A program made the position numbers and the translations under genes. 64,000 nucleotides of DNA from a virus. This document shows positions 20,245 to 61,993 of this stretch, piece by piece. The stretch lies in the IMG/VR virus record IMGVR_UViG_3300023172_000008, positions 120,931 to 184,930 of that record; one strand, 5' to 3'. The notes under the pieces are model-generated. The model had not been told where the DNA came from, searched no databases, and worked only from the letters and a program-made list of their open reading frames with translations. Numbering within the stretch: the stretch's first letter is position 1; each line of letters begins with the position of its first letter.

Positions 20245-21407
20245 TAATTATCCGCCTTAGGTTTAAGTGCTTTAGAAAGACTTTGTCTTTCTTTAATAGT
20301 ATCTCCGCCAATAGAGTCTTCTTTAGTGTTATTAATAAATCCTGTTTTCTGTGTACTTCTAGTGTTAGTATTAGTTAGATCCATTCTAACATTATCTTCA
20401 AACTTGACCCAGCGTTGGCCGTCATATCTAAATAATCTATTTGGCATAAAGTCTGTCCTTAAGAAGTAATCTCCTTTAGTTTGACCTAGTGGGAAACTAG
20501 GGCCATGTCCAAACGCTTCACCATTAGGTGCAATACCGTCGCCAATAAGGTAACCTGAGTAACCGTTTCTTTCAGGTGTTTCATAAACTCTACTTGCATC
20601 TAAATTACCACTATTAATACTTGCTTCAATAGTAGTATCGTCAGCAGTAGTTAATGCAGGTTTACCATTGTCGTCTACTGCTAATGTGTATAAATGTTTT
20701 GTATTATAACCTGACTTAGGTGCATCTGCTTCTGCTTGTGCAAGTACAGCATCATTAATTTGCATTTCTTTTTCGTAAGTAGAAAGTACATCACGTAGTG
20801 TTTGTGAACTTCCTTCTTCTGATGGTAAGTCAAGTATTTCTTTAAATTCTTGTGAATCAACAATTTGTTTTAATTTAATTCTGTATAAATGTGGATACCA
20901 TGTAGGTGAAAATCCTTCACTAGCACGATTAACATCTTCAACAACATAAAAACGTTTAAGTGCAACACTATAATCGTTCAATGCATATTCGTCTTTTAAG
21001 TGCGGTAACTCAATTACATCACCAGACATAATTTTTCTGCCAAGAGTTTTTACACTATAATTAATTGGAATAGTCATAAACAACGTATCATTTTGTAAGA
21101 ATAGTCCAAATTGACTCATATCAAAGTCAACATCTTGTACGTTGTAAATGCCACGCATTACATATACATCTGGATCGTATTTTCTATCCCTATTTTCAAG
21201 GAATAACATATCCTGTATATTTGTCTCTTTAACAGCATCGTAGCGAGGCGTTGCTGGAGTAGCGTCTTCTTCGTCTGGATTACTAGGTCCTAGATATTTG
21301 TGTACAAATATATCTGTACCCCCTACAGTAAACATCTCTGTAATGGTTCTATCTAGAAATTCGTAATCTTTTCCCTTCTCGGGTTTATATAAACTGATTC
21401 TTGGCAT
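20244..21407 (-). CDS. gp14: Neck protein (T4 gp14-like)
   Basis: A 387-aa neck protein, longer than T4 gp14 (256 aa). The N-terminus MPRISLYKPEKGKDYEFLDR and the segment NRDRKYDPDVYVMRGIYNV, then GLFLQNDTLF and KIMSGDVIELPHLKDEYALN fit the gp14 family. The C-terminal extension has a GDYFLRTDFMPNRLFRYDG...WVKFE module shared with gp15 and the sheath. The ATG at 21407 is chosen because an upstream in-frame ATG (21431) would place the start upstream of the late promoter box. With the box only 8 bases upstream, the mRNA may be leaderless. Confidence 0.78.
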   Translation of the reverse strand: MPRISLYKPEKGKDYEFLDRTITEMFTVGGTDIFVHKYLGPSNPDEEDATPATPRYDAVKETNIQDMLFLENRDRKYDPDVYVMRGIYNVQDVDFDMSQFGLFLQNDTLFMTIPINYSVKTLGRKIMSGDVIELPHLKDEYALNDYSVALKRFYVVEDVNRASEGFSPTWYPHLYRIKLKQIVDSQEFKEILDLPSEEGSSQTLRDVLSTYEKEMQINDAVLAQAEADAPKSGYNTKHLYTLAVDDNGKPALTTADDTTIEASINSGNLDASRVYETPERNGYSGYLIGDGIAPNGEAFGHGPSFPLGQTKGDYFLRTDFMPNRLFRYDGQRWVKFEDNVRMDLTNTNTRSTQKTGFINNTKEDSIGGDTIKERQSLSKALKPKADN

Positions 21408-21415
21408 AGTACTTG

Positions 21416-21423
21416 TATTTATC
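21416..21423 (-). promoter_or_regulatory. T4-late-type promoter box for gp14-gp15-hld operon
   Basis: On the minus strand the sequence reads GATAAATACAAGTACTATG. The box is 8 bases from the gp14 start, without a ribosome binding site. It is divergent from, and within 15 bases of, the gp13 late box. Confidence 0.6.
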
Positions 21424-21428
21424 GTTCG

Positions 21429-21436
21429 CATAAATA
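21429..21436 (+). promoter_or_regulatory. T4-late-type promoter box (CATAAATA) for gp13
   Basis: CATAAATACAT lies 20 bases before the gp13 ATG, with a TGGAGA ribosome binding site between. It forms a divergent pair with the gp14 box. Confidence 0.6.
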
Positions 21437-21456
21437 CATATGGAGACCAAAAGAAT

Positions 21457-22215
21457 ATGGCAACATTGACACAGCAAAAACAAGAAATATTTGATTATAT
21501 AAACTCAATGCTAGGTGGCGGCATGGTGGATGTCGAACTAGATCCAGTTCATTATGAAACTGCCCTTAAAAAAGCATTGACTAGATTTAGACAAAAGTCT
21601 GATAATTCTGTGGAAGAATCTTATTTGTTCTTGCCCACAGTTATTGATCAGAATTCATACATTTTGCCAGAGGAAGTAGTTGAAGTACGCAAACTATTTA
21701 GACGCTCAATTGGCTCAAGAACAGGTGGTGGCGATGGCGGCACATTGTTCGAACCATTTAATATGGCATACACAAATACCTATCTATTAAGTTCATCTAA
21801 TATGGGCGGACTTGCAACATACGAAATGTTTGCAGGATACCAAGAACTAGTAGGACGTATGTTTGGATCATTTATTGAATTTAAATGGAACACTACAACA
21901 AAAGAACTACTGTTATTACAACGTCCAAGAGCAGAAGAAGAACTATTACTTTATGTTTACAACTATCGCCCTGATAGCGAATTACTAAAAGACTACCTAG
22001 CAATTCAATGGATTAAGGACTATGCTCTAGCAACTGCTAAAATGATGTTAGGCGAAGCACGTTCAAAATTTGCTACTATTGCAGGACCACAAGGTGGTTC
22101 AACACTAAACGGTGAAGCACTCAAAGCAGAAGCACAAGCAGAAATGGAAAAACTTGAACAGGAAATTTCTACTGCTGTGCCAGGCGGCGTTGGCTACGGA
22201 TTCACAATTGGTTAA
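21457..22215 (+). CDS. gp13: Neck protein (T4 gp13-like)
   Basis: A 252-aa protein fitting the gp13 head-completion/neck family. The N-terminus QKQEIFDYINSMLGGGMVDV is followed by ELDPVHYETALKKALTRFRQ, then SYLFLPTVIDQNSYILPEE. The C-terminal half contains WIKDYALATAKMMLGEARSK and ends with GVGYGFTIG, as in other marine T4-like phages. gp13 joins the portal vertex to gp14 and the tail. It is divergent from gp14-gp15, whereas in T4 these three are collinear. Confidence 0.85.
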   Translation: MATLTQQKQEIFDYINSMLGGGMVDVELDPVHYETALKKALTRFRQKSDNSVEESYLFLPTVIDQNSYILPEEVVEVRKLFRRSIGSRTGGGDGGTLFEPFNMAYTNTYLLSSSNMGGLATYEMFAGYQELVGRMFGSFIEFKWNTTTKELLLLQRPRAEEELLLYVYNYRPDSELLKDYLAIQWIKDYALATAKMMLGEARSKFATIAGPQGGSTLNGEALKAEAQAEMEKLEQEISTAVPGGVGYGFTIG

Positions 22216-22403
22216 TGTCTGAGTTTAGCCACAAAGAAGCCTACAGGCTTTTTTGGATGGTTAAAGGCCACTTAAATTCAAGCGAACAAACAATCTTTCA
22301 ATCAGCACCCGGATACTTCAAACGCTTATGGCATAACGAAGAGGCGTATGCCAAAGAAGAAGGTTTTGAAGAAGCATATCAGAAAATACTTGACAACAAG
22401 TAA
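22215..22403 (+). CDS. Small hypothetical protein
   Basis: A 62-aa charged, mostly helical protein (MSEFSHKEAYRLFWMVKGHL...) whose ATG shares one base with the gp13 stop, so it is probably translated by coupling. Its family is not recognised; it has no membrane segment or motif. The -35 box of the dNMP kinase promoter lies within its last codons. Confidence 0.6.
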   Translation: MSEFSHKEAYRLFWMVKGHLNSSEQTIFQSAPGYFKRLWHNEEAYAKEEGFEEAYQKILDNK

Positions 22404-22418
22404 CTTAGGTTATATAAT
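22390..22418 (+). promoter_or_regulatory. Consensus sigma70-type promoter for dNMP kinase
   Basis: TTGACA (22390-22395), 17-base spacer, TATAAT (22413-22418): an exact consensus match. A 23-base gap and a TAGGAG ribosome binding site precede the kinase ATG. It should be read by unmodified host RNA polymerase, so early. Confidence 0.85.
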
Positions 22419-27460: not shown

Positions 27461-27468
27461 GATAAATA
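27461..27468 (+). promoter_or_regulatory. T4-late-type promoter box (GATAAATA), leaderless geometry
   Basis: GATAAATATTAGTATG: five bases separate the box from the ATG and there is no ribosome binding site. Transcription would start at or next to the A of the ATG. Confidence 0.65.
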
Positions 27469-27473
27469 TTAGT

Positions 27474-28838
27474 ATGGCAAACAAACTCAATGGATTCTTA
27501 GATAATTTAATAAGTGGAGCATTAAGTCCAAAAGGTAATATGGCGGACTTTGCTCATGCGGCACGGTTATATGTTGACGATGCACATCGACTATCGCCTA
27601 AACATAGATTCCTGTATCATGTAAGTTTTAACTTAAACCCTGAAGCAGTCGCACTTATTCCGCAACTTAAAACACAAGAACTTAATATGCTTGTGAAAAG
27701 CGTTGACCTACCAAAGTATCAAATTAGTACTACACTAAAACATCAATACAATAAAAAACGTAATCTACAAACACGTTTAGATTATGATCCTATTAACATT
27801 GTATTCCACGATGATAACTATGGACAGACTACAGCAATGTGGGAAGCATATTATAGATACTATTTTAAAGATGGTAACTATGCAAGTGCTGATGGTAGTA
27901 GACAACCTAATACACGTAACCCTGCATATGACAGAGGTAATACATATTCAAACAGTGAACGAAACAAATATAGATATGGTATGGACAACGATACCTATAA
28001 AAACTTCTTTGATAGTATACAAATCTATCAAATGGCAAGACACAGATATACTTGTTTCACACTAGTTAATCCTATTATTAGTTCATGGTCACATGATACT
28101 ATGGCTAACAGTGATAGTCAAACAGTTGAAAACCAAATGCAAGTACAGTATGAAACTGTATGGTATGCAAGAGGACCAATTACAGAAGGTTCAGCACCTA
28201 AGATGTTTGGACCAGCAAGTGGACATTATGATAGTACACCATCACCTAATTCACTAGCAGGTGGCGGAGCAGTTAACTTATTTGGCCAAGGTGGTATTGC
28301 ATCAGGTGCCGCAGAAGTGTTTGGAGATATTACAGACGGTTCTGCTTTTTCAAGCACCTCAAACTTTTTAGGTACAGTATTAAAAGCATCAAGTGTTGTT
28401 ACTAATGCTAAAAACTTATCAAGTGCCGGTATTAGACAAGAAGGCTTTGGTATCTTAAAAGATCAAATTGGTAAAGCCGCAGGTATTGATGTAAGTGGTG
28501 TTGCAAACGTAGCATTTCCAAAAAGTAGTGGTCTAGGTGGAAGCCTAAGTACTGTTACAGCAGTAGCAGGTGTTATCGGTCTTGGTGCAGTTGCAAACGA
28601 AGCACTAGGTAATCCACTAGGTAAAGCCGTTGATTATCTTGGTTCAAATACTAATGCACTTGACGACTTAGCAAAGTCAACTAACTTTAAGAAAGACCAT
28701 ATCAACAACGGCGGATCGCCAACACCGGACGCTATAAATAGTGCATATAACAATTTGTCAAGTGCTGATAAAAATTCTGCTAGATCAACTGCGATGGCAA
28801 ATATTAAATCGCACAATCAGAATTTTAACTTGACGTAA
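27474..28838 (+). CDS. Tail-tube-fold virion protein (gp48/gp54/gp19-like candidate)
   Basis: A 454-aa protein. The N-terminal half reads like a tail-tube-fold protein: HRFLYHVSFNLNPEAV, then LNMLVKSVDLPKYQISTTLK, DYDPINIVFHDDNYG, AMWEAYYRYYF and VQYETVWYARGPI. The C-terminal half is Gly/Ala/Ser rich with a hydrophobic stretch VTAVAGVIGLGAVANEAL. In T4 the baseplate proteins gp48 and gp54, which start the tube, share the tube fold, so this may be a tube initiator. The exact T4 counterpart is not certain. Confidence 0.55.
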   Translation: MANKLNGFLDNLISGALSPKGNMADFAHAARLYVDDAHRLSPKHRFLYHVSFNLNPEAVALIPQLKTQELNMLVKSVDLPKYQISTTLKHQYNKKRNLQTRLDYDPINIVFHDDNYGQTTAMWEAYYRYYFKDGNYASADGSRQPNTRNPAYDRGNTYSNSERNKYRYGMDNDTYKNFFDSIQIYQMARHRYTCFTLVNPIISSWSHDTMANSDSQTVENQMQVQYETVWYARGPITEGSAPKMFGPASGHYDSTPSPNSLAGGGAVNLFGQGGIASGAAEVFGDITDGSAFSSTSNFLGTVLKASSVVTNAKNLSSAGIRQEGFGILKDQIGKAAGIDVSGVANVAFPKSSGLGGSLSTVTAVAGVIGLGAVANEALGNPLGKAVDYLGSNTNALDDLAKSTNFKKDHINNGGSPTPDAINSAYNNLSSADKNSARSTAMANIKSHNQNFNLT

Positions 28839-31446: not shown

Positions 31447-31474
31447 AAATAGGGCCTACGGGCCCTATTTTTTT
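31447..31474 (+). terminator. Intrinsic terminator before the large terminase gene
   Basis: A perfect 10-bp stem, AAATAGGGCC / GGCCCTATTT with a TACG loop, followed by TTTT. It ends the gp16 unit immediately before the gp17 promoter. Confidence 0.9.
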
Positions 31475-31475: not shown

Positions 31476-31483
31476 AGTAAATA
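31476..31483 (+). promoter_or_regulatory. Late-promoter-like box (AGTAAATA) for gp17, leaderless geometry
   Basis: GAGTAAATACTATACTATGG: the box lies 7 bases before the gp17 ATG and directly after the terminator T-run. No ribosome binding site is present. It matches the late consensus in 6 of 8 positions. Confidence 0.5.
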
Positions 31484-31490
31484 CTATACT

Positions 31491-33077
31491 ATGGCAAAGA
31501 GTTTAGACGGCGTTCTTACTAAGAAAGCCAACCAAAGAGAAACATTTACTAACGAGAATATCGAGGATCTCAAGAAGTGCATGGATCCTGATACCGGCTA
31601 CCTATATTTTTCTGAAAAGTTTGCTTACATTCAACACCCCGTAAAAGGTAAACTTTTATTTGATCCTTTTACATATCAAGAAAGACTTTTAAAAAGTTAT
31701 CACGATCATCGTTTTAATATTAATATGTTACCCAGACAGACAGGTAAAACTACTTGTGCCGCTGTTTACTTAACTTGGTATGCGATGTTTCATCCAGATC
31801 AAACTGTACTAATTGCCGCACACAAATATTCAGGCGCACAAGAAATTATGCAACGTATTCGTTACGTTTATGAATGTTGTCCTGATCATATTAGAGCAGG
31901 AGTTGTTAACTACAACAAAGGTAGTATTGAATTTGAAAATGGTTCACGTATTGTAAGTGCTACCACAACAGGTAACACTGGTAGAGGTATGTCCATATCA
32001 TTACTATACTGTGACGAGTTTGCATTTGTGAATCCTAGTATTGCTGATGAGTTTTGGACTTCAATTTCACCTACACTAGCAACAGGTGGTCGTGCTATTA
32101 TTACAAGCACACCTAACTCAGACGAAGATACATTTGCTATTATTTGGAAAGAAAGCCAAAACAAGTTTGACGATAATGGCAACGAACAAGAAGTAGGTGT
32201 AAACGGATTTCATGGGTTTACTTGTAGTTGGGACGAGCATCCTGACAGAGACGAAGAATGGAAAAAGGCAGAGATAGGACGTATTGGTGAAGAACGATTC
32301 CGTCGTGAGTATGGTTGTGAATTCTTAGTCTATGACGAGACACTAATTAACTCAATCAAACTTGCAAGTATGGAAGGTATTGATCCTATACTCAATATGG
32401 GACAAACACGTTGGTACAGTAAACCAAGCGGTGATAAGACTTATGTAGTTGCATTAGATCCGGCAATGGGCACAGGCGGCGATTATGCGGCCATACAAAT
32501 ATTTGAATTACCAACCTACAAACAAGTAGGTGAATGGCGTCATAATCAAACAGCAATACCAGGACAAATTAGAATTCTAACAGATATTTGTAACTATATT
32601 AAAGACCAATGTCACAACGATGGACAAAACATTTATTGGAGTGTTGAAAATAACACTATCGGTGAAGGAGCATTAATTGTTATTAGAGACCTTGGGGAAG
32701 AGAATATACCAGGAATGTTAGTAAGTGAGCCTATGCGTAAAGGTCACGTAAGAAAATTCCGCAAAGGATTTAATACTACACACGCAACCAAAATAAGTGC
32801 TTGTTCAAGATTAAAAGCCATGATAGAATCAGATAAACTAGTAGTACATAGTAAAGTATTGCTAAGTGAATTAAAAGCATTTGTAGCCAGCGGTAGCAGT
32901 TACAAAGCAAAACCAGGTGAAACAGATGACTTAGTTTCAGCAACATTACTAACTATGCGTATTATTGCTGTGCTAAAGGATTGGGATCCTAGGGTATATG
33001 AAACCTTTAATCATGCTGAAACAGATGAAGATCATGTACCGCCAATGCCTATATTCGTTTCGACTAACATAAGATAA
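31491..33077 (+). CDS. gp17: Terminase large subunit (T4 gp17-like)
   Basis: A 528-aa packaging ATPase-nuclease. Walker A MLPRQTGKTT is at residues ~79-88 and Walker B LLYCDEFAF with D175-E176. The motif-III region is ATTTGNTGRGMS before it and ITSTPNS after. The RNase-H-like nuclease has D323 (VALDPAMGTGGDYAA), E386 (SVENNTIGEGA) and D479/480 (ETDDLVSA). An upstream TTG would add six residues but lies in the terminator T-run, so the ATG is chosen. It drives DNA into proheads and cuts the concatemer. Confidence 0.95.
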   Translation: MAKSLDGVLTKKANQRETFTNENIEDLKKCMDPDTGYLYFSEKFAYIQHPVKGKLLFDPFTYQERLLKSYHDHRFNINMLPRQTGKTTCAAVYLTWYAMFHPDQTVLIAAHKYSGAQEIMQRIRYVYECCPDHIRAGVVNYNKGSIEFENGSRIVSATTTGNTGRGMSISLLYCDEFAFVNPSIADEFWTSISPTLATGGRAIITSTPNSDEDTFAIIWKESQNKFDDNGNEQEVGVNGFHGFTCSWDEHPDRDEEWKKAEIGRIGEERFRREYGCEFLVYDETLINSIKLASMEGIDPILNMGQTRWYSKPSGDKTYVVALDPAMGTGGDYAAIQIFELPTYKQVGEWRHNQTAIPGQIRILTDICNYIKDQCHNDGQNIYWSVENNTIGEGALIVIRDLGEENIPGMLVSEPMRKGHVRKFRKGFNTTHATKISACSRLKAMIESDKLVVHSKVLLSELKAFVASGSSYKAKPGETDDLVSATLLTMRIIAVLKDWDPRVYETFNHAETDEDHVPPMPIFVSTNIR

Positions 33078-33080
33078 ATA
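33073..33080 (+). promoter_or_regulatory. T4-late-type promoter box (GATAAATA), leaderless geometry
   Basis: GATAAATACTAATATG overlaps the gp17 stop. Five bases separate the box from the next ATG and no ribosome binding site is seen. Confidence 0.65.
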
Positions 33081-33085
33081 CTAAT

Positions 33086-38571: not shown

Positions 38572-38579
38572 GTTAAATA
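38572..38579 (+). promoter_or_regulatory. Late-promoter-like box (GTTAAATA), leaderless geometry
   Basis: GTTAAATAATACTATG: five bases between the box and the ATG of the sugar cassette's first gene, and no ribosome binding site. The box is a 6 of 8 match. Confidence 0.45.
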
Positions 38580-38584
38580 ATACT

Positions 38585-39349
38585 ATGAAGAGCGTAGTAT
38601 TAGTAACTGGTGGATTTGATCCATTACATTCAGGACATATTGATTATTTTAAGGCCGCAAAAGAACTTGGCGACAAGTTAATTGTCGGACTAAACAGTGA
38701 CGAATGGCTTACCCGTAAAAAAGGTAGGCCATTCTTAACTTGGGAAGAACGTGCTTCTGTTATCGGTGAACTAGCGTGTGTTGATCGTGTAATTAATTTT
38801 AACGATGACGACGATAGTGCTACTGATGCAATTCGAAAAACACGTAGTCTTTATCCAAACATAGAAATTATTTTTGCCAACGGCGGAGATAGACAAGCCG
38901 ATAACATTCCAGAACTATTTGACGACAACACAGGCGAACTAACATTTGCATATGGTGTTGGTGGCGATAATAAAAAGAATAGTTCAAGTTGGATATTAGA
39001 CAACTGGAAAACACAAAAGACCGAGCGTGATTGGGGATACTGGCGTGTGCTTGATCAAGCAAAAGGTTACAAAGTTAAAGAACTGGTAATTAATCCTAAG
39101 TCAAGATTAAGTATGCAACGACACAAAAGTCGTTCAGAGTTTTGGTATATTTTAAAAGGCAACTGTACTATTGGAACTATAAACGGTAGCACAGACTTTG
39201 AAATTATGTCAGAACTAGGTCCACATCAAAGAGCCATTATTCATGAAATGCAATGGCATCAAGGCATTAATGACACAGACGAGCCTTGTCATATACTAGA
39301 AGTACAGATAGGTGATTACTGCGAAGAAGATGATATCGAAAGGCAGTAA
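38585..39349 (+). CDS. Nucleotidyltransferase-cupin fusion (sugar-phosphate cytidylyl/adenylyltransferase type)
   Basis: A 254-aa fusion. Residues 1-~140 form a HldE-C/TagD-like nucleotidyltransferase: VTGGFDPLHSGHIDYFKAAK (HSGH motif), VGLNSDEWLTRKKGRPFLTW, ERASVIGELACVDRVINF. Residues ~150-254 form a cupin related to mannose-6-phosphate isomerase type II ends: WGYWRVLDQAKGYKVKEL, LSMQRHKSRSEFWYILKG, then HEMQWHQGINDTDEP. It likely activates a sugar phosphate and modifies or senses the sugar. The stop overlaps the next ATG by one base. The exact nucleotide and sugar are unknown. Confidence 0.78.
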   Translation: MKSVVLVTGGFDPLHSGHIDYFKAAKELGDKLIVGLNSDEWLTRKKGRPFLTWEERASVIGELACVDRVINFNDDDDSATDAIRKTRSLYPNIEIIFANGGDRQADNIPELFDDNTGELTFAYGVGGDNKKNSSSWILDNWKTQKTERDWGYWRVLDQAKGYKVKELVINPKSRLSMQRHKSRSEFWYILKGNCTIGTINGSTDFEIMSELGPHQRAIIHEMQWHQGINDTDEPCHILEVQIGDYCEEDDIERQ

Positions 39350-43446: not shown

Positions 43447-44281
43447 TTTATTTACGGATTATGGGAGCCTCAATAGTAAACCTGTTTTTGATGCCTTTGC
43501 TAATGGTGCTCGTCTTCTCGGTCATGATATTGTCTTCAATGATTATGATTGTGATGTTCCTGTTATTTGGTCTGTTCTTTGGAACGGTCGAATGTCTAAG
43601 AACAGGACCGTATGGCAGTTTTTTAGACAACAGGGCAGACCGGTTGTGGTCCTCGAAGTCGGAGGACTAAAGCGTAATTCAACATGGAAGGTAGGTATAA
43701 ATGGAATCAATAGAGATGCTTATTTTGGCAGTAGCGGCAATAGCAGTAGCAGGTTTGAGGGACTTGGATTAGAACTTAAACCTTGGAAAACAGATAATAC
43801 CGGCGACATCTTATTTTGTACTCAACACGATAAGAGTCAACAACTTGCTAACATATCACAATCTAATTTAATTTTAAAAACAATCGAACATATACGCAAA
43901 CAAACATCTAAGCGTATTATTTTACGTCCACACCCGCGATGTCCTTTACCTGCAATAGAATATGAATTTGAAAATGTTGTTAGACAAGAACCAAGACAAA
44001 TAATTAACACATATGACGATTACGACTTTGATTTAACTAACGTATATTTGGTTTATAGTTTTAGTAGCAACCCAGGATTACAATCTGCTATGCAAGGTGT
44101 TCCAGTTTGTGTTAGTGAACACAGTCTAGCATACGATGTTAGTAACGATTGGTTTGGTGATATCAATAATTTAAAATATCCTGATAGGCAACAATGGGCA
44201 AATGATCTAGCATATACTGAGTGGACAATTGAAGAAATAAGTACAGGAAATCCACTTAAACGCTTGACTTCTAGTCTATAA
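43436..44281 (+). CDS. GT-B-like polysaccharide protein, paralogue 3
   Basis: A 281-aa protein starting MKFSLFTDYGSLNSKPVFDA; the inner ATG at 43436 is chosen, giving an 11-base overlap. It has GDILFCTQHDKSQQL, then KQTSKRIILRPHPRCPLPA and VYSFSSNPGLQSAMQGVP followed by VCVSEHS, matching paralogues 1 and 2. Its first ~80 codons use CGT, CTT, GTT and GTC far more than the surrounding genes, which hints at recent recombination in the N-terminal part. Function inferred as surface-glycan glycosyltransferase. Confidence 0.58.
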   Translation: MKFSLFTDYGSLNSKPVFDAFANGARLLGHDIVFNDYDCDVPVIWSVLWNGRMSKNRTVWQFFRQQGRPVVVLEVGGLKRNSTWKVGINGINRDAYFGSSGNSSSRFEGLGLELKPWKTDNTGDILFCTQHDKSQQLANISQSNLILKTIEHIRKQTSKRIILRPHPRCPLPAIEYEFENVVRQEPRQIINTYDDYDFDLTNVYLVYSFSSNPGLQSAMQGVPVCVSEHSLAYDVSNDWFGDINNLKYPDRQQWANDLAYTEWTIEEISTGNPLKRLTSSL

Positions 44282-44292
44282 TATCATATAAT
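44264..44292 (+). promoter_or_regulatory. Sigma70-type promoter, leaderless geometry (44300 gene)
   Basis: TTGACT (44264-44269), 17-base spacer, TATAAT (44287-44292). The ATG of the next gene is 7 bases after the -10 box, with no ribosome binding site. The -35 lies within the end of paralogue 3. Confidence 0.85.
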
Positions 44293-44299
44293 AACTATT

Positions 44300-45607
44300 A
44301 TGAAAAGAACGTTTCCACAAATTGAATCTATTGATGCCATCACTTGCGAGGACTGCTTAGAACTTGTTGCAGGCATTAGCCAATTAAAGTATACTGGAAT
44401 TCCAGAGTTCCAAGACTTGCATAGTTTTAAATTGCACCCCGATAATCATAGACTTATGTTTAGCATTGCAAAGCAAGTTTTCAGAGGAGTGGCATTAACA
44501 AGCAAACAACATAAACTTGTTAAACACTTGTTGTTAGAATACTATCAAGACCAATTTGATATCCACGAGATTGATCTTCGTAATCATATTGATCAGTTAC
44601 GTAGTCCGTACAGACAAATTGATTCTAGTCACTGGATTAAAATTCAAACTAGCAAACATCCTAAAAAAAGAGAAGAAGAGGAGATGCTTGTTATTAGATT
44701 TCCTTTTAATAAAAAAGTTATTGATAGACTTACTGAACTAAAAAATTCAAGTGATAAAGATTACTTCTATAACGAACACAAACATTACTTTCCTATTACA
44801 GAAAAGTATGTATACAAACTTGTAACAATAGCAAACAAGTTTGCTGAGAAGTTTGATATCGACGATGCAGTTATGGAAATTTATAATAAATTATTAGAAT
44901 TTGAAAATAACAAACAAGATTATATTCCAGGCATTTATAATAACGAAGTTAAAAATTTGCCACAGAAAGCAGTTGATAATATTTTAGAAGATATCGGTTC
45001 TCCGTCAGACGAAACACTTTATAAGTTTTATGATAGACGTAGAATGTATGGTCTTGAACATTTTGATCAAGGTATTGTTAGTGATAACTTTAGATATCTA
45101 AACGACCTAACAAAGAAACTTATTGACAGAGCAGGCAGAAATGTTTGTGTAAATTCAACAAAATGGACATTAGATGCCCTAGTTGAAAGTTTAACAGAAC
45201 TAGATCGTTTTCCATTATTAGTGTTGCTAGACGACCACACCGCATTGGATAATTTAATTAATTTGCATAGCAGACTTACACATATTATTCCTGCAAAAGA
45301 AATGAGTGTAATGTTTAGATTAGATAATGATAAAAATGGTGTGAATGAATTTAACCAATTTGTGAAGGATAAGGGATTAAATAATTATGTTGACAAAAAC
45401 ACTAAAGTAGTGTATGCTAGTAGTAATAAAATATCCAAGCCATTAATTAGAAGCGACTGGGATCCAATTTGTGTATTTCATTACACTAGAGAATCTATTC
45501 GTGGTAATATTGATAGTTGGTTACAAGGAAAAGATTTATATTTGCAATATGATGCAGACACACTTAATAAGCATGGAAGAATAAGCGAGACAGTAGACTT
45601 AATATGA
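44300..45607 (+). CDS. Hypothetical protein upstream of uvsW
   Basis: A 435-aa soluble protein, not recognised. The first ~180 residues are helical and charged (QIESIDAITCEDCLELVAGI; LRNHIDQLRSPYRQIDSSHW). The C-terminal half has an alpha-beta pattern: FPLLVLLDDHTALDNLINLH, then EMSVMFRLDNDKNG, KVVYASSNKISKPLIRSDWD. It has its own early promoter and overlaps uvsW by 4 bases, so it should be made with UvsW at about the same level. A DNA-metabolism role is only inferred. Confidence 0.65.
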   Translation: MKRTFPQIESIDAITCEDCLELVAGISQLKYTGIPEFQDLHSFKLHPDNHRLMFSIAKQVFRGVALTSKQHKLVKHLLLEYYQDQFDIHEIDLRNHIDQLRSPYRQIDSSHWIKIQTSKHPKKREEEEMLVIRFPFNKKVIDRLTELKNSSDKDYFYNEHKHYFPITEKYVYKLVTIANKFAEKFDIDDAVMEIYNKLLEFENNKQDYIPGIYNNEVKNLPQKAVDNILEDIGSPSDETLYKFYDRRRMYGLEHFDQGIVSDNFRYLNDLTKKLIDRAGRNVCVNSTKWTLDALVESLTELDRFPLLVLLDDHTALDNLINLHSRLTHIIPAKEMSVMFRLDNDKNGVNEFNQFVKDKGLNNYVDKNTKVVYASSNKISKPLIRSDWDPICVFHYTRESIRGNIDSWLQGKDLYLQYDADTLNKHGRISETVDLI

Positions 45608-51580: not shown

Positions 51581-51843
51581 TGGCTAAACTAATTCCGGGC
51601 GAAGATTTGATATACGAACGTGTAGACGATGTAGTTTATGCTCGTTATGCGAACCGCCCGGAAATAGACCGTTGGGTTGTTGGCGGTAACCCACAAAAGA
51701 ATTTATTTGAAGATTTCAATCAATGGATGGATATTATAGACGCTAGTAAAAATTATCCAACTTTAAGAAAAGCACTTGACAAAGTTGAAACAATATGGTA
51801 TACTATAAAAGATGAAACAGAAAAAGAAACTTCCACTAAATGA
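51580..51843 (+). CDS. Hypothetical protein in the replication cluster
   Basis: An 87-aa acidic protein (GEDLIYERVDDVVYARYANR; NLFEDFNQWMDIIDASKNYP) which overlaps the transporter stop by one base. Its 3' end contains the promoter for gp62 (51776-51804) and runs 32 bases into the gp62 gene. Function unknown; it resembles no enzyme by eye. Confidence 0.7.
   Translation: MAKLIPGEDLIYERVDDVVYARYANRPEIDRWVVGGNPQKNLFEDFNQWMDIIDASKNYPTLRKALDKVETIWYTIKDETEKETSTK
51776..51804 (+). promoter_or_regulatory. Sigma70-type promoter inside the 87-aa gene, leaderless geometry (gp62)
   Basis: TTGACA (51776-51781), 17-base spacer, TATACT (51799-51804). The gp62 ATG lies 7 bases after the -10 box and there is no ribosome binding site. 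Confidence 0.82.
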
Positions 51844-52955: not shown

Positions 52956-53269
52956 GCAAGGATGAAACTTTTGATTCAGTAACTCCAAAGCCAGGTAACG
53001 ATTTTCAACTTGTAAGTAACCATGTTGGTCCAAATGGTGAAAGCGTTGATAGAATATACGGATCACCGGCTAGTGGAGGACATATGAGATTAATGCAGGC
53101 AGACTATACACAATACAAAGGTGGTATAACCAAAAAATCTATTATCAAAAAAGATACACATGGTAATAACTTTAGGTCTTTTGTTTATGTTACCGATGAC
53201 GGTAGATGGTTTGATAGAGCAGGATTACCAATTTCAAAACCAAATGAGGTTGACGAATCAACAGAATGA
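52952..53269 (+). CDS. Small hypothetical protein
   Basis: A 105-aa acidic protein (KPGNDFQLVSNHVGPNGESV; HGNNFRSFVYVTDDGRWFDR) overlapping the previous gene by 4 bases. No motif is recognised. Its 3' end holds the -35 of the next promoter. Confidence 0.65.
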   Translation: MSKDETFDSVTPKPGNDFQLVSNHVGPNGESVDRIYGSPASGGHMRLMQADYTQYKGGITKKSIIKKDTHGNNFRSFVYVTDDGRWFDRAGLPISKPNEVDESTE

Positions 53270-53278
53270 TGTTAGTAT
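53250..53278 (+). promoter_or_regulatory. Sigma70-type promoter, leaderless geometry (mini-DnaE gene)
   Basis: TTGACG (53250-53255), 17-base spacer, TAGTAT (53273-53278), ATG 6 bases after the box. The same TAGTAT at 17-base spacing is used before gp32. No ribosome binding site is seen. Confidence 0.6.
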
Positions 53279-53284
53279 ATAATA

Positions 53285-54996: not shown

Positions 54997-55004
54997 AATA
55001 AATA
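54997..55004 (+). promoter_or_regulatory. Late-promoter-like box (AATAAATA), leaderless geometry
   Basis: AATAAATACTGTTATG: the box is five bases from the ATG of a structural-type gene and no ribosome binding site is seen. It matches the T4 late consensus in 6 of 8 positions. Confidence 0.55.
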
Positions 55005-55009
55005 CTGTT

Positions 55010-55795
55010 ATGCAGTTAACATACAGATATTTAGCAACCAACAAAGCCATTCTCTCAGTAGATTTGGCTAGCAACATTACGGAGTATAAACCAGTGTACA
55101 GTAGACATTTACAGGTATATAGAGGTATTGACAATACCTTAACCTTTGAAATTAAAAATCACGATCAAAAATCTTTAAGTATTTTAAACACATACACACC
55201 TAAGTTTCAAGCATTTGATTCTAACGGCGATATGATTATAGAACGTACAGGAACTATTTTAGAAACAACTACTCCGAGCAAAGTTGGTCAATTTACTGTA
55301 ACAATTACTGCTAATGATCTGTTAAATGTAGAACATCAATTTGTTAGTTATAATGTACATCTAATGGATTCAAATAACAATAATGTACTAACGTATGCTA
55401 ATTCACATTTTGAATCTGCAGGTACAATCCAAATTGTTGCTAATGCTTTTCCTGGACCAAGTGACCCGCATAGTGTTTCAACATTTAATGAAACAGGTGT
55501 TGGCACAGGAATCTTTTACAGTGAAGCAATAGATGCCCATCCGGCAAAGAACGGAAACGAAGCATTACATACTGCCGCTGTATACACTACAGGGTTTCAA
55601 GGCGATGTAACTATCCAAGGTACTTTGGATAATCAAGTTAGTGGTGCAACCAATTGGGGTGATATCACAACACTCAATTTAAATAATCCTACAAAACCAG
55701 AATACGTTAACTTTAATGGAGTGTATTCACATCTTAGAGTTAAAATGGAAAACAAAGTTTCTGGAACAATTGATAAAATTTTAGTCAGAAACTAG
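55010..55795 (+). CDS. Virion structural protein (Ig-like/BppU-like N-terminus)
   Basis: A 261-aa beta-rich protein. The N-terminal ~130 residues (LQVYRGIDNTLTFEIKNHDQ; TPSKVGQFTVTITANDL) resemble the Ig-like BppU domains of baseplate proteins. The C-terminal part (GDVTIQGTLDNQVSGATNWG; NGVYSHLRVKMENKVSGTID) resembles a domain common in marine phage virion proteins. It has a late promoter although it sits among replication genes. Exact role unknown. Confidence 0.62.
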   Translation: MQLTYRYLATNKAILSVDLASNITEYKPVYSRHLQVYRGIDNTLTFEIKNHDQKSLSILNTYTPKFQAFDSNGDMIIERTGTILETTTPSKVGQFTVTITANDLLNVEHQFVSYNVHLMDSNNNNVLTYANSHFESAGTIQIVANAFPGPSDPHSVSTFNETGVGTGIFYSEAIDAHPAKNGNEALHTAAVYTTGFQGDVTIQGTLDNQVSGATNWGDITTLNLNNPTKPEYVNFNGVYSHLRVKMENKVSGTIDKILVRN

Positions 55796-55824
55796 TTGAC
55801 TTTATACTAAAGAGATACTATACT
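55796..55824 (+). promoter_or_regulatory. Sigma70-type promoter, leaderless geometry (primase)
   Basis: TTGACT (55796-55801), 17-base spacer, TATACT (55819-55824), ATG 7 bases later and no ribosome binding site. The -35 begins one base after the TAG stop of the upstream structural gene. Confidence 0.82.
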
Positions 55825-55831
55825 ATATAGT

Positions 55832-56839
55832 ATGAGTGGTCTAGTATATGAAACAATCTTATCGCACCTTCCGCATAAACGGAAAACAACCCCTTCTGGT
55901 TGGACATCGTTCAATGCACCTTGTTGTGTGCATAATGGAACGTCAGCAGATACTAGACAACGTGGCGGACTAATTAAAAATGGTGATGACGGTGTAAGTT
56001 ATCATTGCTTCAACTGTGGATTCAAAGCAAGTTGGAATAAAGGTAGAAAACTATCTCACAAGATGCGTAGACTACTGCAATGGCTTAATGTTTCCGATGA
56101 CACTATTAATAAATTAGCATTGGCTGTTTTACAATTCCAAGAGAACATAGACCACTCTCAAATAGTAGAACTGCCAAAGTTTAACGAAGTGCCACTACCT
56201 GATAGTGCAAGACAAATCAACCAATGGGACGATTACAAGGCACTAGAACCAACAGGTATGGATAGTAATCTTGTTAAAGTGTTTGAATATCTTAGAACAA
56301 GAAAACTAAACACAGACGATTATCCGTTTTACTGGACGCCTGAACTTGGCTATCGTGATAGGGTAATTATTCCTTTCTTTTATGAAAAGAAAATCGTAGG
56401 CTGGACTGCTCGTACTATTTTACCTAATAAACAACCAAAGTATCTAAGTGAACAACAACCAGGATATGTTTTTAACTTAGATGAACAAAATTACAATAGA
56501 CTATTTACTGTAGTTGTTGAAGGTCCTATTGATGCTATACATATTGATGGCGTAGCACTAATGGGTAGCGAAGTCAAAGATCAACAGGCTCTACTACTAA
56601 AATCTTTAAATAAAGAAGTAATACTAGTACCTGATAGAGATGATAAAGGTAAACAATTAGTAGAACGTGCAATAGAATTAGGTTGGTCGGTTAGTATGCC
56701 AGACTGGTCTGAGGACGTAAAAGATGTAAACGATGCTGTTGAAAAATATGGTAGAGTTTATACTTTGCATTCAATTATAATGCAAAAAGAAACTAATGAG
56801 TTAAAAATTAAACTTAGGAGCAAACAATGGTTTGGTTAA
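55832..56839 (+). CDS. gp61: DNA primase (T4 gp61-like)
   Basis: A 335-aa DnaG-type primase, close to T4 gp61 (342). The N-terminus has a zinc-finger-like region: SFNAPCCVHNGTS and VSYHCFNCGFKASWNKG. The TOPRIM core has VVEGPIDAIHIDGVALMG (E near residue 230) and VILVPDRDDKGKQ (D-x-D near 267). WTPELGYRDRVIIPFFYEKK and IVGWTARTI precede it. It makes RNA primers for lagging-strand synthesis with gp41. Confidence 0.88.
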   Translation: MSGLVYETILSHLPHKRKTTPSGWTSFNAPCCVHNGTSADTRQRGGLIKNGDDGVSYHCFNCGFKASWNKGRKLSHKMRRLLQWLNVSDDTINKLALAVLQFQENIDHSQIVELPKFNEVPLPDSARQINQWDDYKALEPTGMDSNLVKVFEYLRTRKLNTDDYPFYWTPELGYRDRVIIPFFYEKKIVGWTARTILPNKQPKYLSEQQPGYVFNLDEQNYNRLFTVVVEGPIDAIHIDGVALMGSEVKDQQALLLKSLNKEVILVPDRDDKGKQLVERAIELGWSVSMPDWSEDVKDVNDAVEKYGRVYTLHSIIMQKETNELKIKLRSKQWFG

Positions 56840-57846: not shown

Positions 57847-58467
57847 ATGTCAACATTAATACCTATGGTAGTTGAACAAACAAGTAAAGGCGAAAGAGCA
57901 TATGACATTTATAGTCGTTTGCTTAAGGATCGTATTGTAATGCTTAATGGACCAGTAGAAGATGTTATGGCTAATTCAGTTGTAGCACAGATGCTGTTCT
58001 TAGAAAGTGAAGATCCAGCAAAAGCAATTAACTTGTATATTAACAGTCCAGGTGGTCAAGTAACAGCAGGTCTTGCTATCTATGATACTATGCAGTATAT
58101 TAAATGTCCTGTGCGTACTATTGTAATGGGCCAAGCGGCATCGATGGGGTCATTCCTAGCACAAGCAGGGGAGCCAGGACATCGTATTGTACTACCTGAA
58201 TCACGTACAATGATTCACAGAGTAAGTTCAGGAACAAGAGGTACAGGCGGTAGTGTGTACGTACAAGAACTTGAAATGGAAGATAACATTAGACACTTAC
58301 AAGAGTCTAAACGTATTAACGAACGATTGGTTGAGTTGTATGCTAAACACAATTCAAAAGAAAAGACATACGAGGAACTGTTAGAGACAATGAAGTTTGA
58401 TACTTTCTTGTCAGCACAAGAAGCAGTCGACTATGGTCTTGCTGATCAGGTTGTGGAGAAAAGATAA
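57847..58467 (+). CDS. clpP: ClpP-type serine protease
   Basis: A 206-aa ClpP with the full catalytic triad: Ser99 ([11 protein letters not shown]), His124 (MIHRVSSG, where bacterial ClpP has MIHQP) and Asp185 ([12 protein letters not shown]). The N-terminal region has [20 protein letters not shown] and [15 protein letters not shown]-like sequence; the handle region has [20 protein letters not shown]. Bacterial ClpP pairs with ClpX or ClpA; no Clp ATPase is in the window, so it likely uses the host ATPase. A role in host-protein turnover or capsid maturation is possible. Confidence 0.93.
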
Positions 58468-59456
58468 TGATTACTTGGGGAATGGTAGGTAACAGTCACG
58501 ATGCATCGCTGGCTGTTTTCAAAGACGGGTTTTTAGTTTGGGCAAGTACCGCTAACAAGTTTAGTGATGTGCCAAACGATCCTAAACATTCCCCAATACA
58601 AATTCAAACAGCAATACAAAGTTATGGCAAGCCTGACTTAGTAGTATGGTATGAAAAGCCTTTGTTAAAATCATTTAGACAATGGCGAGCAGGCCAAGGC
58701 AGTTTCTTAAGTTGTGTAAAAGAAAATAATATTGAAAAGTATCTTGCAGACTTAGGCATTGACTGTCCTGTAAAATATATGCAACACCATCATAGCCATG
58801 CGGCATATGGTTACTATACACAAGGCATTCCTAAAGCAACTGTCATGTGTTTAGACAGCATTGGTGAGTTTGAATGTTTTACTATTTGGTCTGGTGATTC
58901 TAATAGAAAACTAAAGAAAGTTTATTCACAAAGTTATCCACATAGTATTGGATTATTTTATAGTGCTATGACAATGCGTTGTGGATTTAAACCTAATGCA
59001 GAAGAATACAAAATTAGTGAAGCAGGAAGAGATATTGCTATTACAGAAAACTTATCATTAATAAATGATCTAATCAAAACATTTATCGACGGACCGTTAG
59101 ATGGATCTAAACCAGGTGTTAAGTTTAAACACAACCTACACAAAGGTTGCCAATGGTATAGACCTGACCTAACTACAGAAGATGATATGAAAAGACTTGC
59201 TAATGCTACCCAAAGTGTTTTTGAAATGATTGTTAAGTCTAGTGCTAAATGGTGTACCGAAAACTTACCAAATCGGGATTTAATTGTAACAGGCGGTTGT
59301 GCGTTAAATAGAGATGCAATGGACCAACTAAGAGAAACATGGAATAGTGTATATGTTCCACCTAACCCGGGTGACCCAGGAAGTTGCATTGGCGCTGTAT
59401 TAGCAATGGATAAAAAGACTATTGACTTTAACCCTAACGTATGGTATAATAACTAA
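58467..59456 (+). CDS. Half-length carbamoyltransferase-like protein (Kae1-like domain only)
   Basis: A 329-aa protein with only the N-terminal ASKHA/Kae1-like domain of NodU carbamoyltransferases. It starts WGMVGNSHDASLAVFKDG, has metal-type QHHHSHAAYGYY near residue 107, MCLDSIGEFECFTIW, and VTGGCALNRDAMDQL with PPNPGDPGSCIGAVLA. The C-terminal YrdC-like domain (GPRALGNR) is missing, so carbamoyl-AMP formation would need another protein. It overlaps clpP by one base and carries the gp41 promoter in its last codons. Confidence 0.8.
   Translation: MITWGMVGNSHDASLAVFKDGFLVWASTANKFSDVPNDPKHSPIQIQTAIQSYGKPDLVVWYEKPLLKSFRQWRAGQGSFLSCVKENNIEKYLADLGIDCPVKYMQHHHSHAAYGYYTQGIPKATVMCLDSIGEFECFTIWSGDSNRKLKKVYSQSYPHSIGLFYSAMTMRCGFKPNAEEYKISEAGRDIAITENLSLINDLIKTFIDGPLDGSKPGVKFKHNLHKGCQWYRPDLTTEDDMKRLANATQSVFEMIVKSSAKWCTENLPNRDLIVTGGCALNRDAMDQLRETWNSVYVPPNPGDPGSCIGAVLAMDKKTIDFNPNVWYNN
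59422..59450 (+). promoter_or_regulatory. Sigma70-type promoter, leaderless geometry (gp41)
   Basis: TTGACT (59422-59427), 17-base spacer, TATAAT (59445-59450), inside the end of the carbamoyltransferase-like gene. The gp41 ATG is 6 bases later and no ribosome binding site is seen. Confidence 0.85.
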
Positions 59457-60887
59457 ATGAAGCAAAACGTTGACTACGGATTCGATATCCAAAAAACATA
59501 TTTAGAAATGATGTTAAGTGACGCAGAAACATTTGTGCGTTGCCAAGGTATCTTTGATCCAAGTTTATTCGATAGAAAAATACAACCACAAGCAGAGTTT
59601 ATTAAAAACTTTGTCAACGAACACAACACACTTCCAACAGAAAAGATTGTAAACGCACAAGGACAAGTTAAGTTTGAGATTCCAACAGGACTTAATGAAC
59701 AACACTATGATTGGTTACTAGGTGACTTTGAAACATTTAGTAGACACAAAGCACTAGAACGTGCAATACTTGAAAGTGCTGACTTGCTTGAAAAAGGTGA
59801 GTATGGTCCAGTAGAACAAAAAGTAAAAGACGCAGTACAAATTGGTTTGCAAAAAGATCTAGGACTAGATTACTTTGCTGATCCTAAAGGTAGACTACAA
59901 GGACTAAAAGATAACAACGGACAAGTAAGTACTGGTTGGGAAAGTTTAGACAAGAAACTATTTGGTGGATTTAACAAAGGTGAACTAAACATCTTTGCAG
60001 GTGGTTCAGGTGCAGGTAAATCTTTGTTCCTAGCAAACTTAGGTGTTAACTGGGCACTACAAGGAATGAACGTAGTTTACTTAACACTTGAATTGAGTGA
60101 GAAGTTAGTTGCTATGCGTGTAGATAGTATGACTACAGATATACCAAGCAGAGAGATTTTTAGAGACTTAGATAATGTTGAGATGAAAGTCAAGATGATT
60201 GGCAAGAAGTCTGGAGCATTTCAAATCAAATATATGCCAAGTGGTAAGACTGCAAATGATATTAGAAGTTTTATTAAAGAGTATGAAATTAAAACAAACA
60301 AAAAGATTGATGTATTGTTAATTGACTACTTAGACTTGTTAATGCCAATTGGACAAAGAATTAGTGCAGAGAATTTGTTTATTAAAGACAAGTATGTATC
60401 AGAAGAACTACGTAACCTAGCAATGGAATTAGGTTGTATCTTTGTTACAGCATCACAGTTGAACAGAGCATCTGTAGAAGAAATTGAATTTGATCACAGT
60501 CACATCAGTGGTGGATTGAGTAAGATCCAAACTGCTGATAACGTGATCGGTATCTTTACAAGTAGAGCAATGCGTGAGCGTGGACGTTATCAAATACAGT
60601 TAATGAAAACAAGAAGTAGTAGTGGTGTAGGTAGTAAGATTGATTTAGAATTTAATATTGATACACTACGTATTACAGATCTTGATGACGATGACGATGC
60701 AGGATATTCAAATAACTCTAGTCCAATCATGAGTACACTTAAAAGAGGATCAACAGTAACACAAGATTTAAATCCAGATGAACCTAAAGATCCAGCACAA
60801 GGTACTACTGCTCCAAAAGTAAGAGCAGAAACAGACAGTACTAAACTTAGACAGTTCTTAAATAATTTAGATAATGACGAGGAATAA
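59457..60887 (+). CDS. gp41: Replicative helicase (T4 gp41-like, DnaB family)
   Basis: A 476-aa hexameric helicase (T4 gp41 is 475). Walker A GSGAGKS is at residues 183-189 after FNKGELNIFAGG, Walker B is KIDVLLIDYLDLLMP (D290), with the H3-type TASQLNRASVEE and an arginine-finger region TADNVIGIFTSRAMRERGRY. The acidic C-terminal tail resembles that of gp41. It works with the gp61 primase just upstream. Confidence 0.93.
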   Translation: MKQNVDYGFDIQKTYLEMMLSDAETFVRCQGIFDPSLFDRKIQPQAEFIKNFVNEHNTLPTEKIVNAQGQVKFEIPTGLNEQHYDWLLGDFETFSRHKALERAILESADLLEKGEYGPVEQKVKDAVQIGLQKDLGLDYFADPKGRLQGLKDNNGQVSTGWESLDKKLFGGFNKGELNIFAGGSGAGKSLFLANLGVNWALQGMNVVYLTLELSEKLVAMRVDSMTTDIPSREIFRDLDNVEMKVKMIGKKSGAFQIKYMPSGKTANDIRSFIKEYEIKTNKKIDVLLIDYLDLLMPIGQRISAENLFIKDKYVSEELRNLAMELGCIFVTASQLNRASVEEIEFDHSHISGGLSKIQTADNVIGIFTSRAMRERGRYQIQLMKTRSSSGVGSKIDLEFNIDTLRITDLDDDDDAGYSNNSSPIMSTLKRGSTVTQDLNPDEPKDPAQGTTAPKVRAETDSTKLRQFLNNLDNDEE

Positions 60888-61685
60888 ATGCGTAAGATAT
60901 ATTTCTTCGGTGATAGTTTTACCGTAGATTACGACACTAACTGGACCTGGACCAGAAACCTAGCAGAAAAACTTAGAGTCAATGGCTTGGTCAATCACAG
61001 CATGATTGGTACTAGCAATGATTGGATCTTAATGAAGATTAGAGAATCGTTAAGTGACATTACCAAAGACGACATTGTTGTAGTTGTATTAACAAGTGTA
61101 TATCGCTATTGGTTCTTCAAAGACAAACCAGAACTATCTAACTACATGATTAGTAATTGGGATAACTTTGCAAAGGAAACAAATAACAAAGACGCTGTTG
61201 ATGCTGTAAAGGGTTATGTTAATTACATACAAAGAGACGATTTAGACGCATTTAGATTTGAACATCAGGTTGCCTGGCTTAAAGGAACACAGCAACGTTA
61301 CGGGTTTACCCTTCTTCTTATACCAGGGTTTACTATGCCAATTGACTATACCGATATGATTCCTGTTATAGGTGATCTAACTGCTACAGTAAGTAACGCA
61401 GAGTTTATGACACCCAAGGACGATGAAGAATGGTATAGCAGTGGAATTGATACACGTTACAATCATATGCTAAGATGTAATCACGAGATTATGGCACAGA
61501 AGTGTGCAAACAGCATACTAACAGGACAGCCATTAGATCTACAAATAGGATTTAACAGACACATACTCAAAGGTCATGAAAGACTTACACACAAAGAACT
61601 AGGCTCTAAACTTATTGCTACTAGCAACGAGTTATATGGAAATGAGTCTAAACCTACTAAATTTACCCATTGGCTTAAAAGTTAG
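60888..61685 (+). CDS. SGNH/GDSL-hydrolase-like protein
   Basis: A 265-aa protein with a clear block I: KIYFFGDSFTVDYDTNWT, then a block II-like NHSMIGTSNDWILMKI and block III-like DIVVVVLTSVYRYWFF. The C-terminal block V-type sequence is degenerate (HERLTHKELGSKL). It is a paralogue-type relative of the protein at 1572. It starts directly after gp41. A deacylase or esterase role on glycans is inferred; the substrate is unknown. Confidence 0.72.
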   Translation: MRKIYFFGDSFTVDYDTNWTWTRNLAEKLRVNGLVNHSMIGTSNDWILMKIRESLSDITKDDIVVVVLTSVYRYWFFKDKPELSNYMISNWDNFAKETNNKDAVDAVKGYVNYIQRDDLDAFRFEHQVAWLKGTQQRYGFTLLLIPGFTMPIDYTDMIPVIGDLTATVSNAEFMTPKDDEEWYSSGIDTRYNHMLRCNHEIMAQKCANSILTGQPLDLQIGFNRHILKGHERLTHKELGSKLIATSNELYGNESKPTKFTHWLKS

Positions 61686-61692
61686 ATAAATA
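61685..61692 (+). promoter_or_regulatory. T4-late-type promoter box (GATAAATA)
   Basis: GATAAATATACTTTTAGTATG: the box overlaps the previous stop region and is 10 bases from the next ATG, with no ribosome binding site. Confidence 0.55.
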
Positions 61693-61702
61693 TACTTTTA
61701 GT

Positions 61703-61993
61703 ATGCAGAGAGTTACCAGGCAAACTAAAAAATATACTATAGACGGCACAGCGATGATTGATGTCGAACTTGTTGCTATTATGGAACAAGCACTCAAGGA
61801 TTACTCCAGTAAAAATAGATATGTTGTTAAAGTAGATAACGACAGATGGGATCCTAAACATAAAACAGAGTGGGCAAATCACATTCGGACTATAGACCAT
61901 TGGAACCCGTTAGACTATAGATACCTTCCTAGATCAGATACATTTGTATTCTTTCGAAAGAAGAACAAGACACGGTTCGGACAGCCTCACTAA
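61703..61993 (+). CDS. Small hypothetical protein
   Basis: A 96-aa basic protein (VTRQTKKYTIDGTAMIDVEL; WDPKHKTEWANHIRTIDHWN; TFVFFRKKNKTRFGQPH). No family is recognised. A late box precedes it with a very short leader; a virion or DNA-binding role is only a guess. Confidence 0.6.
   Translation: MQRVTRQTKKYTIDGTAMIDVELVAIMEQALKDYSSKNRYVVKVDNDRWDPKHKTEWANHIRTIDHWNPLDYRYLPRSDTFVFFRKKNKTRFGQPH

Follow-up and report, generated by a model that had tools for sequence, protein, structure and literature searches.

Start-codon-proximal sigma70-type and late promoters, and predicted leaderless genes, in a lineage of marine T4-superfamily jumbo phages

The cI gene of phage lambda, as transcribed from PRM, has its -10 hexamer about 6 bases before the ATG and has no Shine-Dalgarno (SD) sequence. 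Its mRNA is leaderless (PMC9031893). Leaderless phage genes are known chiefly as single cases of this kind. A paper on phage AR9 remarks that phage transcripts are 'often leaderless' (PMC5312081). In Deinococcus-Thermus and Actinobacteria, genes termed TA-led or '-10 adjacent to ORF' have a -10 motif 6-7 bp upstream and give rise to leaderless mRNAs (PMC3160421, PMC12340547). The late box of phage T4, TATAAATA, spans -13 to -6, with its first base at -13 relative to the RNA start (PMC2988020). Searches of the open-access literature turned up no account of T4-type late genes that are leaderless.

The DNA analysed here (the window; 64,000 nucleotides, GC 36%) makes up the final part of a 184.9-kb record, which comes from a lineage of marine T4-superfamily jumbo phages. 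Its late promoters resemble those of T4 in using the same box, a gp55-family sigma is likewise encoded, and many late genes have the box followed by a short SD-bearing leader. They differ in that a subset has the box at -13 to -6 relative to the ATG itself, whereas in the same analysis no T4 late box lies fewer than 13 bases from a start codon (0 of 22 at a distance d of 8 or less, d being counted from the end of the box to the ATG). In common with lambda cI the arrangement has no SD and a -10 hexamer some 6 bases before the ATG, but here it is multi-gene and lineage-wide, takes in replication and virion genes, and involves two promoter types. The spacing logic is also that of the TA-led genes; those, however, are on bacterial chromosomes and have sigma70 promoters, as opposed to a phage lineage with a late sigma of its own.

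Two cultured jumbo phages share part of this arrangement. In Pseudomonas phage PA5oct the primase gene has TTGACA-17-TATAAT-6-GTG, and the counterpart of gene 55010 has TATAAATA-5-ATG at the same place, but enrichment is insignificant and the terminase and most virion genes are leadered with an SD. Salicola phage SCTP-2 has TTGACA-16-TAGCAT-6-ATG at its primase gene and a late box 5 bases before the ATG of seven ORFs, but the enrichment is weak (late p 0.004).

Promoter spacing and SD sites across the lineage

A megablast of the window against phage records gave no match, so relatives were drawn from protein searches and IMG/VR loci. Host assignment through MAG contigs yielded unrelated phyla and was dropped. 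Spacing and enrichment were analysed genome-wide in the window's own phage (G000) and in G001, G002 and G003, with T4 and RaK2 for comparison. In all four lineage genomes the distance from box to start is bimodal, with a short class at d 4-8 without an SD, a long class at d of at least 16 (late box) or about 20 (sigma70) with an SD in most cases, and intermediate values nearly empty. A late box at 4-8 nt is 10- to 30-fold more frequent at gene-start ATGs than at other ATGs (p 4e-6 to 5e-23 in all four genomes), and for sigma70 sites with a 17-base spacer, at 5-7 nt, the excess is 14- to 27-fold (p 2e-4 to 2e-6); the same analysis of T4 and RaK2 found neither short-distance enrichment nor bimodality. 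About 8-9% of genes have the leaderless layout, which bounds the initial annotation's description of it as widespread: it is multi-gene, but extends to this fraction.

The late-box upstreams of orthologs fall into 155 at d 4-8, two at 9-11, none at 12-15 and 20 at 16-22. An SD is present in all 20 of the last group, and in 25 of the 29 with a late-box distance of at least 16 as against 11 of the 155 at d 4-8, the latter being about background (8-11%, taken from non-start ATGs); a further count at short distance gives 2 of 58. The dependence of SD presence on distance (late p 2e-18, sigma70 p 9e-8) bears out the earlier statement linking AGGA-type sites to longer leaders. When upstreams with d 5 are anchored on the ATG, the late box spans -13 to -6, as it does in T4 when counted from the RNA start, and its core is near-invariant in aligned orthologs ([GTA]ATAAATA and close variants). 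ATG is the start in almost every short-distance case, though the step that chose starts in ortholog upstreams gave preference to ATG, which also predominates among leadered starts; because of that step no AUG-only rule is claimed for the short class.

A gp55-family late sigma was found in all five genomes searched (PHROG 12791 and 234, E down to 1e-90). A search for the gp33 co-activator with PHROG 254 had no match, and the controls were equally without one; this negative carries little weight. A phage bS21 protein, considered as a lineage-wide translation factor, is present in G002 only, and that role is unsupported.

These results make it very probable that, at about 8-9% of the genes in this lineage, sigma70-type and late promoters start RNA at or near the ATG and give leaderless mRNAs translated by the leaderless route. 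RNA polymerase would start at, or a few bases from, the A of the start codon, as judged from promoter position. One set of genes would be transcribed from host sigma70-type promoters (primase and gene 44300, and in some relatives helicase and gene 51812), and another from late boxes of the T4 type, recognised by the gp55-family sigma that the phage encodes (terminase, 33086, 38585, 55010 and the tail tube gene). The resulting mRNAs, with neither leader nor SD, would be translated through binding of 70S ribosomes to the 5'-terminal AUG. As the layout occurs with sigma70-like promoters as well as with T4-type late ones, the proposal that early and late classes alike are leaderless stands.

Sigma70-type sites

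On reading the sequence, all twelve promoter/start-codon pairs of the initial annotation were present. Five are sigma70-type sites with a spacer of 17 and 6-7 nt to the ATG, as had been described:
55796..55831 (+), primase promoter: TTGACT (55796-55801), 17 bases, TATACT (55819-55824), 7 bases, ATG 55832
55832..56839 (+), DNA primase gene (PHROG 47, E 1.5e-43), proposed leaderless start at 55832
44264..44299 (+), promoter of gene 44300: TTGACT (44264-44269), 17 bases, TATAAT (44287-44292), 7 bases, ATG 44300
44300..45607 (+), gene 44300, 435 aa, proposed leaderless
51776..51811 (+), promoter of gene 51812: TTGACA-17-TATACT-7-ATG 51812, within the end of the upstream ORF
53250..53284 (+), site at gene 53285: TTGACG-17-TAGTAT-6-ATG 53285, a weak sigma70-like match
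59422..59456 (+), promoter of gene 59457, a DnaB-like helicase: TTGACT-17-TATAAT-6-ATG 59457

The primase promoter fills the entire gap between the upstream stop codon and the ATG. All 45 distinct orthologs (51-100% identity) retain a TTGAC/TATAAT-like promoter at d 5-9, with a spacer of 17 in nearly all, and 36 of them are at exactly d 6. In those 36 aligned sequences TTGAC is invariant at -35 to -31; anchored on the ATG, the hexamers occupy -35 to -30 and -12 to -7, which are the canonical positions if the A of the ATG is +1. The gene 44300 protein had no match in PHROG or Pfam, and its orthologs in G001, G002 and G003 (53, 36 and 34% identity) show the same geometry at d 5-7.

At the remaining three genes conservation is partial or absent. 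The 51812 promoter is at d 5-7 in 9 of 40 orthologs, the remainder having no promoter or one at a greater distance, so that a leaderless reading applies to about a quarter of them. At 59457, 4 of 39 orthologs are at d 5-6, and 13 of 39 are at d 21-27, all 13 with an SD-like motif. The 53285 promoter was rejected: a single ortholog of 47 has it, namely the window's own sequence, and the site may be a chance match.

Late-box sites

The other seven pairs have late boxes at the distances originally given (5-8 nt, and 10 at 61703), but not all of one type, three being variants of GATAAATA:
27461..27473 (+), gene 27474, tail-tube-like protein: GATAAATA (27461-27468), 5 nt before the ATG
31476..31490 (+), gene 31491, terminase large subunit: AGTAAATA (31476-31483), 7 nt before the ATG
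31448..31474 (+), intrinsic-terminator-like hairpin immediately 5' of the terminase late box: AATAGGGCC-TACG-GGCCCTATT and a T run
33073..33085 (+), gene 33086, virion structural protein: GATAAATA (33073-33080), 5 nt before the ATG
38572..38584 (+), gene 38585, nucleotidyltransferase-cupin protein: GTTAAATA, 5 nt before the ATG
54997..55009 (+), gene 55010, virion structural protein: AATAAATA (54997-55004), 5 nt before the ATG
61685..61702 (+), gene 61703: GATAAATA, 10 nt before the ATG
21408..21423 (-), gene 21407: GATAAATA (21423-21416), 8 nt before the ATG

Short spacing is conserved at the terminase gene (50 of 52 orthologs at d 4-8), at 33086 (49/49 at d 4-7) and at 38585 (16/17 at d 4-8). 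The initial annotation's own test, to look for RBS-bearing leaders at these positions in relatives, found no clearly leadered ortholog at these three genes, at the primase gene or at 44300, where the promoter keeps its fixed place next to the ATG. At 27474, 24 of 28 orthologs are at d 4-5 and three are leadered (d 19-30); an AAGGA overlaps the upstream edge of the window's late box, and is not an SD because it is too distant from the ATG and lies upstream of the expected RNA start. At 55010, 13 of 39 orthologs are at d 4-6, and 26 are at d 16-28 with an SD in most. In the leadered relatives at 27474, 55010 and 59457 the box has shifted upstream and an SD has been gained, as the leaderless hypothesis predicts.

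For two genes, the initial inference of leaderless starts would give way to leaders of a few bases. The box at 61703 (d 10 in both of two sequences) would give a short leader of about 5 nt, and that at 21407 (d 8 in 3/3 orthologs) one of about 3 nt. The 21407 box stands back to back with a plus-strand CATAAATA box (21429-21436), which precedes a leadered gene at 21457.

Alternative explanations and significance

The layout might serve as a translational regulon, in which infection shifts the host to 70S/5'-AUG initiation via initiation factors, S1 or free 70S, allowing primase, terminase and some virion proteins to be synthesised while SD-dependent initiation is restricted; we regard this as unlikely. 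It is distinctly unlikely that the promoters are real but incidental, the genes being translated chiefly by coupling or reinitiation on longer polycistronic mRNAs, or by SD-independent initiation on AU-rich leaders. The listed genes are mostly co-directional with their neighbours, and for 59457, where the upstream stop TAA directly adjoins the ATG, and 51812, which overlaps the upstream ORF, translational coupling from the upstream gene is a sufficient alternative. Against this as a general explanation, 41 of 52 terminase orthologs have the terminator-like hairpin right before their late box; in relatives, just 39-43 bp, containing two late boxes, separate the ATGs of each of three divergent gene pairs (permuted hexamers give 0-1 such pairs), which have no same-strand upstream gene; and the 5-6 base spacing is held over 45-50 orthologs, with an SD solely where the spacing grows. 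On the leaderless reading, too, some of these genes could have leadered transcripts in addition, through readthrough from upstream.

Start calls were made without experiment, and the real starts might lie further downstream with SD sites of their own, the listed ATGs being unused. At record position 78247, the gp55 gene in G000 resolves in this way: an apparent 12-base case there was rejected, its relatives being leadered, and an SD-like GGAGA directly follows the called ATG, so that the true start is probably downstream and uses it. As an account of the listed genes this is very improbable, since tblastn matches to nearly every ortholog of the conserved genes start at residue 1-6, and from one ortholog to the next the ATG keeps its position relative to the box. 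Chance can be dismissed for the class as a whole, 53285 excepted: sequence of 36% GC often yields TAAATA or TATAAT near an ATG, and single sites such as 53285 lack conservation, but the 10- to 30-fold enrichment over non-start ATGs recurs in four genomes and is absent from the equally AT-rich T4.

Annotation is affected in cultured phages as well: the SCTP-2 primase start is annotated downstream of the proposed leaderless ATG, and that of PA5oct at a GTG touching the -10 box. The switches between leaderless and leadered forms among orthologs of 27474, 55010 and 59457 provide a direct comparison of both modes. If the proposal is correct, essential replication and packaging genes would routinely skip the SD step in T4-like phages.

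Promoter/start pairs and their conservation

All twelve promoter/start pairs of the initial annotation, with their spacings, were found on reading the window (G000:C1:120931-184930, the end of a 184,930-base IMG/VR virus record). Distances (d) run from where the -10 hexamer or the late box ends to the ATG; in 5/5 sigma70-type sites, 17 bases separate the -35 from the -10.

Genes, named by start-codon position, with promoter type, d in bases and conservation of the close promoter in orthologs
44300: sigma70, 7; same geometry in relatives G001, G002, G003 (34-53% identity)
51812: sigma70, 7; 9/40
53285: sigma70, 6; window only
55832, DNA primase: sigma70, 7; d 5-9 in 45/45 distinct orthologs, exactly 6 in 36
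59457, DnaB-like helicase: sigma70, 6; 4/39
21407, minus strand: late, 8; d 8 in 3/3
27474, plus strand, tail-tube-like: late, 5; 24/28
31491, plus strand, terminase large subunit: late, 7; 50/52
33086, plus strand, virion structural: late, 5; 49/49
38585, plus strand: late, 5; 16/17
55010, plus strand, virion structural: late, 5; 13 short, 26 others long
61703, plus strand: late, 10

The placement seen in the window is kept in relatives for 55832, 31491, 33086, 38585, 27474, 21407 and 44300, in part for 51812, 59457 and 55010, and not for 53285. Coupling to the preceding gene could be a sufficient explanation at 59457 and 51812. The primase layout extends outside the lineage to PA5oct (TTGACA-17-TATAAT-6-GTG) and SCTP-2 (TTGACA-16-TAGCAT-6-ATG), whereas in RaK2, Vibrio phage 2.275.O, GAP32, Phosso and Atu_ph07 the primase upstream region is SD (Shine-Dalgarno)-bearing or longer. 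The primase starts of SCTP-2 gene 154 (L235), set 3' of the leaderless ATG, and PA5oct EST35_0223 (L174), with a GTG directly abutting the -10 box, look misannotated.

No near relative of the window was found among named phages; at the protein level, its nearest cultured relatives are jumbo phages of the PA5oct-like type, with 53% identity in the terminase and 36% in the primase. IMG/VR contains numerous relatives, with identities of 50-100%. In MAGs, both bacterial and archaeal, relatives of the terminase are scattered over unrelated groups and point to no particular host. A gp55-family late sigma is encoded in 5/5 genomes searched, and a bS21 ribosomal protein homolog at G002:C1:332212-332364, with none found in G000, G001, G003 or G005.

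Gene 38585-39349 fuses a cytidylyltransferase-like domain to a mannose-6-phosphate isomerase-type cupin domain, under a predicted conserved leaderless late promoter. A Nol-like carbamoyltransferase gene (58467-59456) is flanked by those for the head maturation protease (57847-58467) and the DnaB-like helicase (59457), and a very long ORF (7651-15315, 2554 aa) lies in the late region. Outside the window, the minus-strand gene G000:C1:72675-73112 is a conserved leaderless-type late gene, with GGTAAATA 4-5 bases before the ATG in G000, G001 and G002.

Enrichment and leader classes

Genes were called with a simple codon-usage caller, and start ATGs compared with all others. A late TAAATA core lies 4-8 bases before 3.5% of start ATGs against 0.33% of others in G000, the window's phage, and before 3.9% against 0.30% in G001, 4.7% against 0.16% in G002 and 4.3% against 0.40% in G003 (p from 4e-6 to 5e-23); for sigma70-type sites at 5-7 bases the values across G000-G003 are 1.1-2.2% against 0.07-0.12% (p 2e-4 to 2e-6). 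Close placement in these genomes exceeds chance. The same test gave no enrichment of close late or sigma70 sites in T4 or RaK2, no significant enrichment in PA5oct, and weak enrichment of late boxes in SCTP-2.

Both distance distributions are bimodal: late boxes peak at 5, are nearly absent at 9-15 and return from 16 upward, while sigma70 sites peak at 6-7 and then from ~20 upward. In T4, by contrast, the nearest late box is 13 bases from the start. The initial annotation held that short-distance genes lack a ribosome-binding site and longer leaders carry one, and the orthologs bear this out: for the listed late genes, pooled, an SD-like motif accompanies 11/155 boxes at 4-8 bases, the background rate, but 20/20 at 16-22, with 0 boxes at 12-15. 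Short-distance sigma70 genes have an SD in 2/58 ortholog upstreams (Fisher, SD against distance: late p 2e-18, sigma70 p 9e-8). Single genes switch class between orthologs: most long 55010 orthologs carry an SD, 27474 has a long distance in three relatives, and 59457 has 13 relatives with distance 21-27 and an SD, some starting with GTG.

Predicted RNA starts

The standard positions of sigma70 hexamers relative to +1 are -35 to -30 and -12 to -7. In ATG-anchored alignment the primase hexamers fall at -35 to -30 and -12 to -7 and the late boxes at -13 to -6; the first base of the T4 late box is numbered -13 (PMC2988020). Because hexamers and late boxes occupy these standard positions, RNA would be expected to start at the ATG.

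Two features speak against a long leader concealed upstream. A terminator-like hairpin and T-run end just upstream of the terminase late box in 41/52 orthologs, and some divergent pairs, two in G002 (190497, 194353) and one in G003 (60022), have an ATG-to-ATG gap of only 39-43 bases, occupied by a pair of late boxes set back to back; with permuted hexamers the number of such pairs is 0, in one case 1. As the gap holds only those boxes, both genes of each pair would be leaderless, under a bidirectional promoter. In the window, late boxes TATTTATCG..CATAAATA also stand back to back at 21405-21457, where they serve minus-strand 21407, predicted to be near-leaderless, and plus-strand 21457, which is leadered.

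Precedent, extent and proposed mechanism

Lambda cI is the textbook phage example of a leaderless gene. In bacteria, leaderless genes and their inference from a -10 adjoining the ORF are already established (PMC3160421, PMC12340547). A search of open-access papers turned up no description of leaderless mRNAs made from T4-type late promoters, nor of a conserved multi-gene leaderless class within a phage lineage.

Some 8-9% of genes qualify (13/168 in G000; 22/257, 33/365 and 16/188 in relatives), perhaps a tenth of the counted set being due to chance. For this class, the best reading of transcription start and translation mode, judged from sequence, is that host RNA polymerase with sigma70, and later with the phage gp55-type sigma, would initiate on the AUG or no more than a few bases from it. 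70S ribosomes would translate such mRNAs from the 5'-terminal AUG, a mode of translation reviewed in PMC9031893.
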